A stretch of 64,000 nucleotides of DNA from Rhodobacter sp. (GTDB taxonomy: Bacteria; Pseudomonadota; Alphaproteobacteria; Rhodobacterales; Rhodobacteraceae), in the NCBI GenBank assembly GCA_027489175.1, contig JAIYAE010000019.1:124001-188000 (forward strand), in the 5' to 3' direction. This document shows, in pieces, positions 3-56,052 of the stretch (position 1 is the stretch's first letter; the number at the start of each line of letters is the position of its first letter). The notes below the pieces were generated by a model. It was not told the origin of the DNA. It worked only from the letters and a program-made list of their open reading frames with translations, and made no database searches. Both the position numbers and the translations under genes were made by a program.

Positions 3-2708
3 GTGCTGGCCTCGTCGATCTCCGAGACGGTGCATCTGTTCGGGCAACTGCCGACGATCTGTTCGCTGGGCATCTTCCTGAACGGCCTGCCTTATGTCTA
101 TCGCTGGATCGTGTACGGCGGTTGGCGCAGTTGTGTGGCGGCAGTGATCTTTTCGGCCGCGACGACGGCGGCGCATCATGTGACGACGATCTTTGGCGGC
201 GTTCTATTCATCCTGCCCTTGGGCCTGCATGCGCTGAAGGCTGTGTCCGAGATCCGCCCGGCCAAGGGACGTTCATGGTTCTATGCGGGCTGGCGTTTTG
301 TTCCGCCTCTGGCCCGGGGCGCTGTGCTGGCAGTCCTGATGCTGGGCGCGATCGTGCTGACCGTGTTCCCGTACTGGTACTGGTCGGTCACCGACCCGAT
401 CACCCAGGTGTCGATCCCGCACGGCAGCCGGGAAAGCTTTCTTGAGCGCCTCGACCTTGGCCTTGTGTTCTTCGTCATCCCTTGGGGCGTGGCGATCCTG
501 TACCTGCCCTATGCGATCTACAAGACGGCGACCACGCGACTGTGGCCGCTGGGCCTGTCGCTGATGCTTTGCGTTCTTCTGGGCACTGGTGGCACTACCC
601 CCCTGCCCCGCGTGATCCTGGGCGGAGCTTTCGACATCCTGACGCTTGACCGCTTTACCTTCTGGGCGACGATCCTGATCCTGCCGTTCCTCGGCCTCAT
701 GTTCGACGGGCTGCTGCACGGCCGGTCGCGCCAAGCCATCGTGCAGGCCTTTGGCAATGGCAGTCACCGGCTTCTGGTCGGCGGCATCTTTGCCGCGATG
801 GTGGGGATGGCGGTCCTGCCCGCCGTTCTGCCGCGCATGCAGCCGACCCAACCCGAGTTTGTCGACCCTGCCCCCGTTGCCCGCTTCATGGCCGAGGATG
901 AGCATGACCGCTGGCGGTATCTGACCCTCGGCCTTGGTGACCAGTTTGCGTATCTGTCGTCCCAGACGACGGCGCTTTCGGTCGACGGCAACTATCATTC
1001 CGCCCGCCGCCTGCCCGATCTGACGCGGTTTTCGGTCGAGCGGCTGGAGAATGCCAAGTACCTGGGCGTTCCCGGGCTTGGGTCACTTCGCCAGTTTCTG
1101 GTCAACGCCGAGCGGTACAACCTGAAATATGTCTTCTCAAACGACGCGTTCTACGACCCGCTTTTGCACTTCACCGGCTGGACGCGGCTGAACCGGCTGG
1201 GCAATGGCATCGTGGTCTGGGAAAAGCCCGACATCCCGCCGCTGCCTCTGGTCCTGCCCCGCCGCGACATCCCGGCCATACATGCCTTGATGTGGGGTGT
1301 GTTGCCGCCACTGGCGTTGATCGCGGCGGCGCTGGTGTTCCTTGGCTCGGCCCTGCAGCGGACCTTTGGTGCAAGGCCTGGTGAGTTCCGGCCCGTTGCG
1401 CGCGGTGAGACCGGGTTCAGCAATCCTGCCCGCGTGCAGCGTGTGGTTCTGGGGCTGGCTGTCTTTGCCCTTGTCGCCGCAGCATTTCTGGGCTGGACGA
1501 TCCGCGAAAGACTGCTGCGCCCCGAACCTGCGGAAGCGGTGATTACCGCCTATTTCGGCGACCTGGATTTCCGCCGGCATGAGGCGGCCTTTGCCCGGCT
1601 TGACCCTGAAACGCGTGGCCGGTTCGAGGATGCGCAGTTCAGCTGGCGCTGGACCGGCGGACTTGTCGCGTCCTATGGCAAGCTGTCCGGCGTTACAGTC
1701 ACCCCCTTGCGGCGCGACGGGGCCATCGCGGACTTTACTGTGGCGCTGGACTGGCTGACCCCGCTTGACCAGCACCGGCAGACGCTGACGGTCCGCACGA
1801 TCCTGCGCGATGGCATATGGTACATCGCGCCCACGGCCTTGCGCCCGGTGCAGACGCCGCTGCTTTTGCTACGGCAAGAGGTGCTGGACCTTAACGTTGT
1901 CGGTCGCCGTCAGCCCCGGCCCGAGACCGACCTTCACCGTGACCGGCTGGACCGCCCACGCATCGCCATCAGCGGCGCGCGTCTGGTCCGCCATGATGAC
2001 CGTTATGCGGTGGTTGGCCAGATCACCAACGCCGACGCCGATCCGGCGCATCTGACGCTTGAGGCGGTGCTGCGCGGGCCGCGTCTGGCGCTTTCGCAGG
2101 CAACCTCGGGGTTGGTGAACGCCCATCGGCTGCTGGCCGCGGAAACCGCAGGCTTCCGCATCGACTTTGAAGGCGTGCTGTCCCTGCAGGACGCCCAGAC
2201 CGATGGCGAGTTTGACCCAACCCTGTTCATCCCGCCCGAATTCGCCGAGCCACCGGAAGCGGCCAGCCTGACCGCCCGCGCCTTGGTCACCGGCACCAAC
2301 CTTTACCGTGGGATCGCGCTGAACGGCCTGCGCACGAAGGTTGAGGGCGGGTCGCTGATCCTGACCGGGCTTGCGGTCAACACCGGCACGGAAACCGCCA
2401 GCATCGTCGGGCTGAACCTGCTGCTCTACGGCCCTGACGGCCTGCCGCTCTGGGCCGAGACGGGCTTTGTCGAGACGAATATCTACCCGGGCCAAAGCAC
2501 GCCGTTCCGCCTTGTCCTGCCACTGGGCAGCGAGATCACGGTGGTATCGGACCTGACCGATGCGGTGATCACCGTCAATGGCCGGGCGCAAGAGCCCGAC
2601 CTTGCGCTGCCTGGCGCGGCCGACGGTACGATCCCGCTGGATCCGGCCACCGGCTTTTCCCACCTGCGCCTTCTGGCCACGAGCATGACCCATGACCCGC
2701 TGTTCTGA
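3..2708 (+). CDS. Large multi-pass membrane protein with C-terminal beta-sandwich domains (5' partial)
   Basis: The reading frame is open to the window edge, so the true start lies upstream and the GTG at 3 is only the first possible codon. At least 901 residues are visible. Residues 1 to about 280 are a series of hydrophobic segments like a polytopic GT-C or polymerase-type membrane protein. About 290-420 is soluble, two more membrane segments lie near 425-450 and 478-498, and the rest is extracytoplasmic. The tail has two FxLYD/DUF3426-like beta-sandwich repeats, near 650-740 and 775-860. The next gene overlaps its end by 17 nt and glycan genes follow, so a role in polysaccharide assembly or export is inferred from context only. 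I do not recognise a named family. Confidence 0.75.
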   Translation: MLASSISETVHLFGQLPTICSLGIFLNGLPYVYRWIVYGGWRSCVAAVIFSAATTAAHHVTTIFGGVLFILPLGLHALKAVSEIRPAKGRSWFYAGWRFVPPLARGAVLAVLMLGAIVLTVFPYWYWSVTDPITQVSIPHGSRESFLERLDLGLVFFVIPWGVAILYLPYAIYKTATTRLWPLGLSLMLCVLLGTGGTTPLPRVILGGAFDILTLDRFTFWATILILPFLGLMFDGLLHGRSRQAIVQAFGNGSHRLLVGGIFAAMVGMAVLPAVLPRMQPTQPEFVDPAPVARFMAEDEHDRWRYLTLGLGDQFAYLSSQTTALSVDGNYHSARRLPDLTRFSVERLENAKYLGVPGLGSLRQFLVNAERYNLKYVFSNDAFYDPLLHFTGWTRLNRLGNGIVVWEKPDIPPLPLVLPRRDIPAIHALMWGVLPPLALIAAALVFLGSALQRTFGARPGEFRPVARGETGFSNPARVQRVVLGLAVFALVAAAFLGWTIRERLLRPEPAEAVITAYFGDLDFRRHEAAFARLDPETRGRFEDAQFSWRWTGGLVASYGKLSGVTVTPLRRDGAIADFTVALDWLTPLDQHRQTLTVRTILRDGIWYIAPTALRPVQTPLLLLRQEVLDLNVVGRRQPRPETDLHRDRLDRPRIAISGARLVRHDDRYAVVGQITNADADPAHLTLEAVLRGPRLALSQATSGLVNAHRLLAAETAGFRIDFEGVLSLQDAQTDGEFDPTLFIPPEFAEPPEAASLTARALVTGTNLYRGIALNGLRTKVEGGSLILTGLAVNTGTETASIVGLNLLLYGPDGLPLWAETGFVETNIYPGQSTPFRLVLPLGSEITVVSDLTDAVITVNGRAQEPDLALPGAADGTIPLDPATGFSHLRLLATSMTHDPLF

Positions 2709-3765
2709 CTTTGGCCTTGCCCTTGTCCTGATGCTGGCGGGCATGCCCGGACTGGCAGACACCCTCGTCTCCGACGCCTTTGGTCTGTTCGACCCTGCCA
2801 CAACTGCCCCCGAACGCCACGACTGGGCAGGCTGGACTGGCGCGGGCACGGTCGTCGCTCCACTAGACCCCGACCGTCTGGTCATCTTTGCCGGGCCGAA
2901 AAGCATGGTGGCAGGCAAGGACCCCGGCCATGTCATGGCAACGGTTGTTGACCGCTTTGGCAACCTTGTGGCGGACGGCACCACCGCCATGGTCACGGTC
3001 GCAGGCGCGGCCACGCCCGGGCAAACCGCTGGCGGCATTGTGGACCTGCTGGTCCCCCCACAGTCGCGGGCTTGGGTGCTGTTTGTGGGGGTCACCTCGG
3101 GGGGACGGCAAAGCCCGCAGGCGATGCTTGGCATCACGGCTGACATCGCGTCGATCCAGCCGGACATTCCCGGGGCCGTGGCGGACGCCCGGTCGGATAC
3201 TGAGTTCGTTCTGACCTCGTCCCCGATGGCCGACCGGTTCGGCAATCCCGTCCCCGATGGTACTGGCATTACAACCGTCCTGCGCCATCCCGATGGCAGC
3301 TACAGCATTGCCCAAGGGATGACCTTGCAGGATCAGAGCCTTGCCCGCTTCATCGCGCGCGACATGCCGGGCGGGGTGGAGGCCACGATCACGCTTGGCA
3401 CCAAAACCTCTCAGTCAGCGGCATTTTCCGTGCAGGCTCCAGTGTCCGCGGGCGCGCCGCCCCTTGAGGTGGAAAGCCTTCCTGACATCGATGCCTTGCG
3501 GCTGACCCTGGGGCCGTTTCTGACCACGGACGGTTACGCCCTGACGGATGGCGCTCAGGTGACCGTGACGGCCAACCTTGTCAGCGGACCGCCGGTGACG
3601 GGAACCGCCTGGGTGCTGGACGGCGAGGTCAGTCTTTTGCTGCCGATCACCACGTCAAGCGCAGTCCTGCGCCTGACCGTCGCATCGCCGCTTGGCCCGA
3701 TGGACCTGACGCCGGATTGGCACGCTGCCGTCGCCGCAGAAGCTTCCACAAGGATCAGCCCATGA
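2692..3765 (+). CDS. Secreted Ig-like (invasin-type) protein
   Basis: A 357-residue protein with an N-terminal hydrophobic signal segment (about residues 8-22, ending near GLADT). The body is rich in beta-strand and polar residues and contains repeated phrases such as DRFGN and DGTG, typical of Big-1/invasin-like Ig domains that carry a variable polymer-facing strand. It starts inside the end of the upstream membrane protein gene (17-nt overlap), and its stop overlaps the next start as ATGA, so the three are probably translated together. It probably works in the periplasm or at the surface with the glycosidase-like protein that follows. No catalytic motif is visible. Confidence 0.7.
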   Translation: MTRCSDFGLALVLMLAGMPGLADTLVSDAFGLFDPATTAPERHDWAGWTGAGTVVAPLDPDRLVIFAGPKSMVAGKDPGHVMATVVDRFGNLVADGTTAMVTVAGAATPGQTAGGIVDLLVPPQSRAWVLFVGVTSGGRQSPQAMLGITADIASIQPDIPGAVADARSDTEFVLTSSPMADRFGNPVPDGTGITTVLRHPDGSYSIAQGMTLQDQSLARFIARDMPGGVEATITLGTKTSQSAAFSVQAPVSAGAPPLEVESLPDIDALRLTLGPFLTTDGYALTDGAQVTVTANLVSGPPVTGTAWVLDGEVSLLLPITTSSAVLRLTVASPLGPMDLTPDWHAAVAAEASTRISP

Positions 3766-52405: not shown

Positions 52406-53107
52406 TTACAAGGGCTTGCGCGCCACACCCATGTAGAGCACCGCCGTCAGCGGCAAGGGGCCAAAGGTCAGGTCCAACCGCCGGTTCACCCCGCGCGGAC
52501 CAAGACCGGTGACCTTGCCCGGCACCAGCCCCGCGCCTAACATCGCTCGGCGCAGCTCATCCGGCTTGATGAACATCGCCGGGTCATGCGTGCCGCGCGG
52601 CAGAAGGCGCAGCACATCCTCGGCCATGGTGATCGTGGCCAACTTCGCCAACGGGTTGCGGTTGATCGTGTCGTAAAGGAACATGCCACCAGGGCGCAGG
52701 GTCCGCGTCACCTCGGCCAGGACCTTGTCCAGATCTGCGACATGCTCCAGCACATCGACGCAGACCACGGCGTCAAAGCTGGCAGCGGGATAGGGCAAAT
52801 CCTCACCCACACCGGTGTGATAGACGATGTCCAGCCCCCCTTCCAGGGCATGGATGCGCGCCGCGTCAATCGCGGCGGCGGCAGGGTCGATCCCCGTCAC
52901 CCGCGCCCCCCTCTGCGCCAGCGCCTCGGCCATGAAGCCACCGGCGCAGCCAAGGTCGAGGACATCCTTGCACCGCCAGTCGATCTGCCGGTCAAACCAG
53001 CGCAAGCGGCCCGGCACCAGGTTTTTCAACGTCCGCACCCACCGGATGTCATCCGACCACCATTGATCGGCGACACGGTCATAAATCGTCAGGTCATTGC
53101 GGGTCAT
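52406..53107 (-). CDS. UbiG-like SAM-dependent O-methyltransferase
   Basis: A 233-residue class I methyltransferase. It has DVLDLGCAGGFMAEALAQRG (motif I, near 49), VTGIDPAAAAIDAARIHA, ASFDAVVCVDVLEHVADLDK and TLRPGGMFLYDTINRNPLA. These phrases match UbiG, which methylates two hydroxyls during ubiquinone synthesis. The N-terminus (YDRVADQWWSDDIRWVRTLKNL) also fits. However, it sits at the end of a photolyase operon (14-nt overlap with the gene before it), so it could be a paralogue with another substrate. It is convergent with BKACE, only 4 nt apart. Confidence 0.8.
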   Translation of the reverse strand: MTRNDLTIYDRVADQWWSDDIRWVRTLKNLVPGRLRWFDRQIDWRCKDVLDLGCAGGFMAEALAQRGARVTGIDPAAAAIDAARIHALEGGLDIVYHTGVGEDLPYPAASFDAVVCVDVLEHVADLDKVLAEVTRTLRPGGMFLYDTINRNPLAKLATITMAEDVLRLLPRGTHDPAMFIKPDELRRAMLGAGLVPGKVTGLGPRGVNRRLDLTFGPLPLTAVLYMGVARKPL

Positions 53108-53903
53108 GGCGGTCCTTCGTCAGGCGCGGCAGCGCATAGGGGACAGCGGCGCGATAGGCCTCAAACCGCGCACCATAACGCGCGGCAAAGCGGCGTTCCT
53201 TCAGGCGGGGGGCGACCAAACAATAGGCGGTCAGGCTGATGGCAAGGGCCAACTGGTCCGGCGTCCAGACCGGCACCGTCCACAAGGTCAGCGCGAAGGC
53301 CACGTAAATCGGCTGGCGGATCAGCCGGAAAAGCCCTTGCGTCGGCATGTCGGGAAAGACTGGCCGGATACGCGCCAAAAGTGACAGCCAGCCCAGCGCC
53401 CCCGACTGCACCTCGGCCCCGGCGTCGAAACTGGCTTTCAGAAGCAGCAGCCAGCTTGCCCCGTAAGCCACGCTCAGCACCCAGAAAACCGCCCCCTCCG
53501 CCCGCCACCAGACAATGCCCGACGGCGTCCAGAGGGCAAAAAGCGCAAGGAGTTGGAGAGAGGCGATGATTGCGTAAGTCGTCGTCGCCAGCGTCGCGCC
53601 ATGCGCCCCAAGCCGGGCAAGAAGCCGGCTACCGGGGCCGGTCAGCAAGGCCGAATGGGCCAGCGGAAACTGCAGGATCAGGGCGGCATTTGCAACGGCC
53701 GCCCAAGGCCACGGCACAGTCCCCAGGCTTTCGCTCAGGCCAAAGAACATGGCGACGATCATCGCCAGCACCCCGGCGGCAAAGGCCACATGACAGATCA
53801 TCCCCATGACCAACGCAAGCGCAATCCGCCCTCCGCCTGGCGAAGGGTGCAGGCTTGCGCGGACCAGCGCGATCAATCGGGCAATACGGGGATCAGCGAT
53901 CAT
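53094..53903 (-). CDS. Membrane protein, NnrU / isoprenylcysteine methyltransferase-like
   Basis: About 269 residues with six or seven hydrophobic segments. The C-terminal region FRLIRQPIYVAFALTLW followed by APRLKERRFAARYGARFEAYR matches the SAM-binding end of phospholipid/isoprenylcysteine methyltransferases and NnrU-like proteins (PIY, then E-x2-RYG-x-FExYR). ATG 53903 is used; GTG 53909, overlapping the upstream stop, is an alternative. It probably methylates a lipid or membrane molecule. Its end overlaps the UbiG-like gene by 14 nt. Confidence 0.75.
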   Translation of the reverse strand: MIADPRIARLIALVRASLHPSPGGGRIALALVMGMICHVAFAAGVLAMIVAMFFGLSESLGTVPWPWAAVANAALILQFPLAHSALLTGPGSRLLARLGAHGATLATTTYAIIASLQLLALFALWTPSGIVWWRAEGAVFWVLSVAYGASWLLLLKASFDAGAEVQSGALGWLSLLARIRPVFPDMPTQGLFRLIRQPIYVAFALTLWTVPVWTPDQLALAISLTAYCLVAPRLKERRFAARYGARFEAYRAAVPYALPRLTKDRHDPQ

Positions 53904-53905
53904 GC

Positions 53906-54835
53906 TCACTGCGCCAACAGATCCTCGGCAATGGCGGTTCCGCTTGCCCATGCGGCCTCAACCCTTGGGCCGATGCACCAGTCACCGCCAAGGTAAAGTG
54001 AGTCGTCAGCACTGCGCAGGAAGGGCTTTCCCAACGGCGTGGTCACCCGGGCATAGCGCCAGCGGTGCGCCTCGGCATGGGTCACGGCGTCCGGCGACGC
54101 CCCTAGCCGGTCAAGCAGCAGCGGCAGCATCAGCGCCACAATCTCAGCCGGGGTCTTCTCCAGATGTGCCTCACTGAATGCAGTGCTGACCTGCGCGACC
54201 CATGCCGTCGCCTCTCCACCAGGGCGGCCAGGTTTCTGGCTGTCCTGCGCGATCCATGACAGCGGATCACCAGCGTCCTTCCGCGTCACGAAAGGCGCAG
54301 GACGCCGCACGGCAGCCATCAGCGTCAGGCAGGGGGCAATCCGCACCCCCGCCAAAGGGGCAACCAGTGGATGGACGGCCCCCAGAAGCCCCGCCACCTG
54401 CGGCGCGGGGACCGTGATGACCACCCGCTCCGCTGCAAGGTCACTGTCGCCAACCCGCAAGGTCCAGCCACCGGCCACAGCCGTCAGACCCGTGACCAAG
54501 GCGTTCTGCCGCACCTCCAGCCCCGCACCCAGCGCCTTGGGCAGGGCCGACATGCCGGGCGTGCCGACCAGATGGCTGCGCCCGCTGCCATCGGCCCAAA
54601 GGGCAACCGCACCCTTTTGAGACAGCTCCTGAAGCACCGCCGCGAACCTGGCCCCCTCCGCCGTCACGTATTGCGCCCCATGGTCGAACTGCAGCCCTGC
54701 GGCCCGGCGCGTGGCCACCCGCCCGCCAATGCCGCGCCCCTTGTCCAGAATGACCACCGACACCCCGGCATCTGCCAACCGCCGCGCGCAGGCAAGGCCC
54801 GCGATCCCGGCCCCGATCACCACAACCGGGGTCAC
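53906..54835 (-). CDS. FAD-dependent amine oxidase / renalase-like oxidoreductase
   Basis: A 309-residue flavoprotein starting at GTG 54835, which overlaps the photolyase-like stop (GTGA). It opens with VVVIGAGIAGLACARRLADAG (dinucleotide motif), VVILDKGRGIGGRVATRRA and FDHGAQYV, the renalase/NAD(P)-FAD pattern. It ends with LYLGGDWCIGPRVEAAWASG, the second FAD contact. The longer frame upstream lies within the photolyase-like gene. Such proteins often neighbour photolyases in alphaproteobacterial light- or singlet-oxygen-stress operons. The substrate is unknown. Confidence 0.82.
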   Translation of the reverse strand: MTPVVVIGAGIAGLACARRLADAGVSVVILDKGRGIGGRVATRRAAGLQFDHGAQYVTAEGARFAAVLQELSQKGAVALWADGSGRSHLVGTPGMSALPKALGAGLEVRQNALVTGLTAVAGGWTLRVGDSDLAAERVVITVPAPQVAGLLGAVHPLVAPLAGVRIAPCLTLMAAVRRPAPFVTRKDAGDPLSWIAQDSQKPGRPGGEATAWVAQVSTAFSEAHLEKTPAEIVALMLPLLLDRLGASPDAVTHAEAHRWRYARVTTPLGKPFLRSADDSLYLGGDWCIGPRVEAAWASGTAIAEDLLAQ

Positions 54836-56052
54836 TGGACCACCAGCTTCGCCAATATCTGCGGGATCTGTTGCTTGACCTTGAAAAACCCAGCCGAGGC
54901 ATAGGGCCAGATCGTGCTGTCCCAGTCCCGCCGCCATTCGGCCAGCACGATGCCCTTCGCGGCCAGATAGGGCGCGGCGTCATTCATCCAGTCCTTCAGC
55001 GGCCCGCGCGTGACGTAAGGTGTGGCGATCTGCGTCGCCCCGGTTGCGGCCGCCCATTTCGCCAACACATCCGGGTGGTCGGCCCGCAGGGCCACCGGTG
55101 TCACGCCTGCGCGCGCGGCGGCATCGGTCAGCGCACCGGCCTCAAACGCGATCACAGCGTCAGACACCTCCAGCGGCGACCGAAGATGGCTGGCGGCCAA
55201 GGTGGCGGCGCCGACGATGCTCAGACCCGCAAGGTCGAACTCCTCGATCCGGCAATCCTCATCCGTCAGGAGCAGCGCCGTCGGCCGCCCGCCTTCGGGC
55301 GCGCGGAAGCTGCGCAGCGGCATCAGGGGGGGCAGACCATCCGGCTCAGTCGCCTCCAGCCCTTGGGTCACCTCCACCAGATCGCTTTCGCGTGGGGTAA
55401 AGCGTTGGCCGGTGAAGGTGGCGATATTCCAGGCCTGCGCGTGATAAGGCTTGCCCCGCGTGTGCAGCCCCGCCACCCAGCGCCAGCCCAGCGTGTTGGA
55501 CGCCGCATCGCCATCCAGAAGATGCCGGTAGAAGAAATCCGCCCCAAGCCGCCACGGCAGCCCGAGTGTGAAAATCCAGATCGACGCGAACCACATCCGC
55601 GCGTGGTTGTGCAGATACCCCGTCTCCACCAGTTCTTCCGCCCAGGCATCCATGCAGGCCAACCCGCTTTGCCCGTCCATCGCGCGGTCGACGTCGCGCC
55701 GCAGACGCCGGTCGCGGTCAAGGGAAGCAAGGTCCGCCTCAAGCCCCTGACGGTAGCTGGCCCAGACCTGCGGGCGACGCTCCAGCCAGCCCTTGAAATA
55801 GGTCCGCCAGATCACCTCTTGCACGAACTTCTCAGCCGATTCCGGCCCATGCGCATCAAGGGCGGCGGCGACCACTTCACCTTCCGTAACCAGCCGACGG
55901 CGTATCCAGGGCGACAGGACCGACACCGCCTTGTGCTGCCCCGGCCCCCGGTCATAGTTGCGGCCGCTGGCATAGCGCAGCCCCATGCCGGGCACGAATG
56001 CCGTAAGCCGGGCCAGCCCTTCGGCGCGCGTTGGGGTGAAGCTGCTGGTCAT
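54832..56052 (-). CDS. Photolyase/cryptochrome-like flavoprotein with permuted domain order
   Basis: A 406-residue protein. The FAD-binding helical domain, normally C-terminal, is at the N-terminus: AVSVLSPWIRRRL (near 42), FVQEVIWRTYFKGWLERRP (near 76), TGYLHNHARMWFASIWIF (near 145), FFYRHLLDGDAASNTLGWRWV (near 175) and AGLHTRGKPYHAQAWN. About residue 255 onward is an alpha/beta domain: GRPTALLLTDEDCRIEEF, VIAFEAGALTDAAARAGVTP, LAKWAAATGATQIATPYV and KGIVLAEWRRDWDSTIWPYA. It resembles the antenna/Rossmann domain that usually comes first. Light-driven DNA repair or signalling is likely, but not proven for this layout. Confidence 0.82.
   Translation of the reverse strand: MTSSFTPTRAEGLARLTAFVPGMGLRYASGRNYDRGPGQHKAVSVLSPWIRRRLVTEGEVVAAALDAHGPESAEKFVQEVIWRTYFKGWLERRPQVWASYRQGLEADLASLDRDRRLRRDVDRAMDGQSGLACMDAWAEELVETGYLHNHARMWFASIWIFTLGLPWRLGADFFYRHLLDGDAASNTLGWRWVAGLHTRGKPYHAQAWNIATFTGQRFTPRESDLVEVTQGLEATEPDGLPPLMPLRSFRAPEGGRPTALLLTDEDCRIEEFDLAGLSIVGAATLAASHLRSPLEVSDAVIAFEAGALTDAAARAGVTPVALRADHPDVLAKWAAATGATQIATPYVTRGPLKDWMNDAAPYLAAKGIVLAEWRRDWDSTIWPYASAGFFKVKQQIPQILAKLVVQ

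Follow-up and report, generated by a model that had tools for sequence, protein, structure and literature searches.

A class of photolyases known as NewPHL or SPL, in which the FAD domain comes first and is followed by a C-terminal 'Z-domain', has been described in two papers, one of them PMC13274461. These two papers report repair of cyclobutane pyrimidine dimers (CPDs) in single-stranded DNA and give Dinoroseobacter shibae as an example; Methylobacterium mesophilicum and Prochlorococcus Phr7 are further examples. PMC13274461 speaks of 'NewPHLs or SPLs' with 'inverted domain topology', names the D. shibae protein A8LJA9 and refers to Emmerich et al. 2020, words from whose title also occur in PMC9426592. 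NewPHL is listed in PMC12083526 among the subfamilies retaining the Asn that controls FAD redox chemistry. According to PMC9498864, CPD repair in single-stranded DNA has also been reported for DASH cryptochromes, and Xu et al. 2021 view short photolyase-like proteins as a possible origin of the family. The question of which domain order arose first in the photolyase/cryptochrome family depends in part on whether the C-terminal domain of such proteins is a relocated antenna domain. A literature search under circular-permutation wording for photolyase did not find the class, because the papers speak of inverted topology or reverse order.

Here we analysed a photolyase-like gene and its neighbours in a 64,000-nucleotide stretch of Rhodobacter sp. 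DNA (the window). The gene and its two domains were placed as follows:

54832..56052, minus strand: gene for a probable NewPHL-type (inverted-topology) photolyase of 406 aa (open reading frame, FAD_binding_7 match, full-length homologues, predicted model)
55336..56052, minus strand: N-terminal FAD/catalytic helical domain, residues 1 to ~239 (phmmer alignment to 1dnp, structural alignment, conservation counts)
54841..55284, minus strand: C-terminal alpha/beta domain ('Z-domain'), residues ~257-404, weakly antenna-like (DSSP of the model, hhalign against antenna domains)

In Pfam, FAD_binding_7 matched residues 76-209 (E = 7.2e-23), while the DNA_photolyase antenna domain (PF00875) had no match anywhere in the protein at E = 1; likewise, a PF00875 profile search of its own genome did not return this protein. 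The top match among PDB sequences was the T. thermophilus photolyase, with residues 9-220 aligned to its residues 179-379. Matches to NCBIfam models (DASH, PRK10674, 8-HDF photolyase, plant cryptochrome, phr2) lay over the FAD domain and were all far under their cut-offs. The predicted structure had a pLDDT of 93.7 with high confidence for both domains (the model lacks Met1, so that its numbering is the protein numbering minus 1), and residues 2 to ~239 superposed on the part of photolyases that is C-terminal to the antenna. This comparison of the whole model was driven by model residues 1-238; two of the 50 rows (7pub_Ff and 4k03_B) extended into the C-terminal domain, and nothing is drawn from them. 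Pfam, model and structural alignment thus bear out the preliminary description, which had placed an FAD domain at residues 1 to about 240 and an alpha/beta domain from about 255.

The residues that mediate CPD repair in class I photolyases are well established, and most have a counterpart here. In the phmmer alignment to 1dnp, E79, W82, R83, N149, R152 and M153 align with E274, W277, R278, N341, R344 and M345 of E. coli photolyase, and W167, D180, D182, N186, W190 and W192 with W359, D372, D374, N378, W382 and W384. Eleven of these positions (all but D182) were identical in 109/109 aligned rows (104 different sequences, window protein included) and were kept in all six more distant members, and D182 was conserved in 108/109 rows. 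Two deviations, read from the alignment, would count against a CPD photolyase: the position of E. coli W338 is Tyr in the window protein and in 106/109 rows, and no Trp of the window protein stands opposite W306 of the electron-transfer chain.

With a probability of about 0.92, the gene at 54832..56052 encodes a NewPHL-class photolyase (SPL) that would split CPDs. From the fold and active-site residues, a light-driven CPD reaction can be proposed: the N-terminal helical domain is predicted to bind FAD, and once excited by light in the blue or near-UV range, the reduced flavin would pass an electron to the dimer, which would then be split. By analogy with the characterised members, single-stranded DNA may be the preferred substrate. 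The small C-terminal alpha/beta domain would replace the missing N-terminal antenna domain and close the FAD site; in the work of Emmerich and colleagues from 2020, the C-terminal domain is said to close this site rather than to hold an antenna pigment with certainty.

Assignment to the class was further assessed by comparison with D. shibae, to which the window's organism is related. The D. shibae genome in our set (G035, with a 190,506-base contig that over its first 4000 bases is 100% identical to NC_009955 from D. shibae DFL 12) encodes an FAD-first protein of 405 aa (L114:3884-5101), which we infer to be A8LJA9. The window protein aligned with it over the full length at 46.8% identity (57.0% within residues 1-237, 31.9% in the remainder). 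The window protein thus displays the features of NewPHLs, namely a predicted N-terminal FAD/catalytic photolyase domain, the inverted topology, full-length homology to the D. shibae protein, the absence of Fe-S cysteines (C133 and C267 are its only two cysteines) and the CPD photolyase active-site residues except W338 (Tyr) and W306 (none opposite). It is an ordinary member of a published class. The reversed domain order is real, but the novelty implied for it in the preliminary description is lost, since the same order defines NewPHLs: the arrangement that caught the eye is the hallmark of a class published earlier.

The preliminary description had proposed looking for the same order in other Rhodobacteraceae, and the homologues showed it. 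Among 149 genomes from the same family, 131 had some match and 50 (own genome included) had a homologue of at least 44% identity, giving 51 matches, one of which is a contig-edge piece. Two NewPHL-type genes occur in one genome (G006), at 73% and 51% identity to the window protein. When named genomes were scanned, at least 595 stretches were returned, at least 587 of them encoding relatives, and 80 loci were kept; three of these (L074, L075 and L077) were contig-edge fragments and were not used. A profile restricted to the C-terminal domain had matches in 13 of the 299 genomes sampled from the phylum; 12 lay in open frames of 379-514 aa and one, a weak match, in a frame of 171 aa. Matches spanning 80% or more of the protein were present in eight plasmid records; in the two best, a megaplasmid of Ruegeria sp. 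TM1040 and a Peteryoungia desertarenae plasmid of 708,533 bases, the product is labelled merely "FAD-binding domain-containing protein". All 109 aligned rows were FAD-first, and none showed a normal antenna domain upstream. One locus, L099 (478 aa by the start rule), was excluded from the tree and the conservation counts; its extra N-terminal stretch, judged by eye, carries no antenna motif. That the gene is an ordinary photolyase, truncated or mis-assembled so that its antenna domain is missing and a chance reading frame has been added, is scarcely credible: beyond the missing N-terminal domain nothing speaks for it, whereas the shared order in 109 rows, the recurrence of the C-terminal domain in open frames of other genomes and a predicted model confident for both domains all argue against it.

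Next we examined the C-terminal domain, which the preliminary description had likened to an antenna domain. DSSP of the model gave the element order b-b-a-b-a-b-a-b, which fits an antenna domain minus its first helix. The C-terminal domain of the window protein alone had no Pfam match. DNA_photolyase was weakly matched by the C-terminal domains of 2/30 members (best E = 0.063), a level equalled by chance families such as DUF3197 (E = 0.019), and a search of PDB sequences with the C-terminal domain profile gave nothing convincing (best E = 0.054). Using hhalign, 30 C-terminal domains aligned in register with 30 PF00875 antenna domains over 79 columns (probability 24.7%, P = 0.00079). With 110 C-terminal domains against the antenna profile the score was 27.7 (probability 20.8%, P = 0.0011), as compared with 15.1 for the reversed template and at most 22.2 for 200 column shuffles; two of 200 block shuffles scored higher. 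Addition of six more distant members raised the score to 29.0 (probability 27.7%, P = 0.00064); L099 was kept in both of these profile sets. Fourteen control profiles from neighbouring genes reached at most 18.5, with a Rossmann methyltransferase at 14.6; most of them are thin (eight contain between one and three sequences), the two UbiB profiles overlap, and HK_Pd, which was read from a cut gene in a frame containing 22 stops, is no real protein control.

These results can be read in two ways. An unrelated alpha/beta module may have been recruited as a cap, which would make the architecture a domain replacement and not a permutation. The lack of a Pfam match for the window's domain, DNA_photolyase matches at the level of chance families, an HH probability of just 21-28% and the two higher-scoring block shuffles are consistent with such a cap; an in-register match over ~80 columns with P = 0.0006-0.001, the score of 29.0 against at most 18.5 for the controls and the predicted element order, in which the first helix of the antenna fold would be lost, argue against it, and we consider it rather unlikely. 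The C-terminal domain is probably related to the antenna domain but reduced, which the profiles support but do not prove. The antenna-like character claimed for it has modest support from profile register, P values and element order, and falls short as to HH probability and block shuffles.

To place the window protein within the class, a tree of the 109 rows was computed by a quick method with SH-aLRT support and midpoint rooting. The window protein fell into a clade of 58 rows (support 98) from Rhodobacterales, Devosia, Bosea, Halomonas, Hoeflea and plasmids, many of which come from metagenome bins and are possibly misassigned. The D. shibae protein belonged to a separate clade of 30 rows (support 98). 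The 58-row branch does not hold the D. shibae protein, and its substrate could therefore have drifted. Downstream of the photolyase gene, the window carries the following genes:

53906..54835, minus strand: next gene, for an FAD amine oxidoreductase that we take to be renalase-like, 309 aa from a probable GTG start (Pfam Amino_oxidase and NAD_binding_8 on the longer open reading frame 53906-54937; recurs beside homologues)
53094..53951, minus strand: ICMT/PEMT-like protein, start uncertain (Pfam PEMT, ICMT only under the cut-offs; recurs beside homologues)
52406..53107, minus strand: class I SAM methyltransferase (Pfam Methyltransf_11; recurs beside homologues)

The renalase-like gene probably starts at a GTG that overlaps the stop codon of the photolyase gene as GTGA (54832-54835, minus strand), which suggests translational coupling of the two genes. 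At 40% identity or more, the renalase-like gene was found at 13/58 loci of the window's branch, the ICMT-like gene at 15/58, the methyltransferase gene at 12/58 and a UbiB gene at 8/58, as compared with 0/51, 0/51, 0/51 and 1/51 of the remaining loci, a contrast biased because the queries, taken from the window (three of its genes) and from two members of its branch, favour this branch. The tally includes two pairs with identical proteins (L048/L049 and L007/L082) and a partial methyltransferase match at L005, and the window's own methyltransferase, lying outside L004, was not counted. Flanks extended only 1.5 kb per side for 13/58 and 17/51 loci, and up to 6 kb for the others. Most of the 58 loci had none of these neighbours within the available flanks, the matches being concentrated in the window's nearest relatives. 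Outside the branch, weaker matches (30-35%) were found for the renalase-like gene (L106 and L109) and the methyltransferase (L096 and L106). Varying subsets of the UbiB-type kinase, renalase-like, ICMT-like and methyltransferase genes occur at 52406-54835 (minus strand) in the window and at L006, L034, L035, L036, L038, L043, L045 and L059. At L043, UbiB, photolyase, renalase-like, ICMT-like and methyltransferase genes follow one another consecutively.

A brief literature search for a UbiB/renalase operon with a photolyase in Rhodobacter returned none, and this branch-specific neighbourhood may be the part that is new: the window adds to the class a NewPHL branch with a recurrent gene neighbourhood. 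Only tentatively, and with doubt, do we suggest that the branch is a distinct, horizontally spread form of NewPHL (Rhodobacterales, Devosia, Bosea, Halomonas and large plasmids), in part in an operon with a UbiB-type kinase, a renalase-like flavoenzyme, an ICMT-like protein and a methyltransferase, which would join light-driven DNA repair to quinone/membrane-lipid photoprotection. Another reading is functional divergence of the branch, its members serving as a flavin photoenzyme in light sensing or in a lipid/quinone photoprotection operon and not mainly in DNA repair. The separate 58-row clade, the concentration of the neighbour genes there as against the other 51 loci and the GTGA overlap point in this direction; however, the mapped CPD-repair residues are unaltered in the 58 rows, most of the loci lack these neighbours in the available stretch, the contrast carries the bias of its queries alongside weaker matches elsewhere, and neighbours related to light stress would be no argument against repair. 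We regard such divergence as improbable, and a CPD-splitting NewPHL remains our preferred reading.

Finally, the window protein was compared with the other photolyase classes, including those encoded in its own genome. A DASH cryptochrome was rejected, as the protein scored 70.2 bits against a TIGR02765 cut-off of 317.05; so were a class I photolyase (no N-terminal PF00875 match) and an FeS-BCP/PhrB protein (no match to PF04244, the DPRP domain, and two cysteines instead of four). The genome itself encodes an ordinary-order photolyase that looks like class I (L001, at 305 bits with its best model, under the cut-off of that model), along with another protein matching PF00875 and PF03441 (L002) and an FeS-BCP-like protein matching PF04244 (L149); against the DASH model, L001 and L002 were both under the cut-off. 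At L001 (G000:C32), the ordinary-order photolyase is followed by an ORF in the same direction (ORFs 619-2106 and 1820-3379), whose product presumably resembles cyclopropane-fatty-acid synthase.

Class I CPD photolyases (E. coli 1dnp and T. thermophilus 1iqr) share the fold of the FAD domain and most of the active-site residues with the window protein, but carry an N-terminal antenna domain and measure 471 (1dnp) and 420 (1iqr) aa, whereas the window protein, at 406 aa, is without this domain and reversed in order. DASH cryptochromes have a similar FAD domain, and here too the order is reversed in the window protein. Phr4+Phr5 and Phr6 of Synechococcus/Cyanobium also have the reverse order, with the FAD domain ahead of the photolyase domain, but Phr4 and Phr6 have four Fe-S cysteines, unlike the window protein with its two cysteines. 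Prochlorococcus Phr7 is, like the window protein, without Fe-S cysteines. With NewPHL/SPL proteins the window protein shares the FAD-first order, the short C-terminal domain and the absence of an N-terminal antenna domain. It differs from the D. shibae NewPHL in belonging to another branch, with a C-terminal part just 32% identical, and the neighbour genes of the window's branch were not found beside members of the D. shibae branch at 40% identity.
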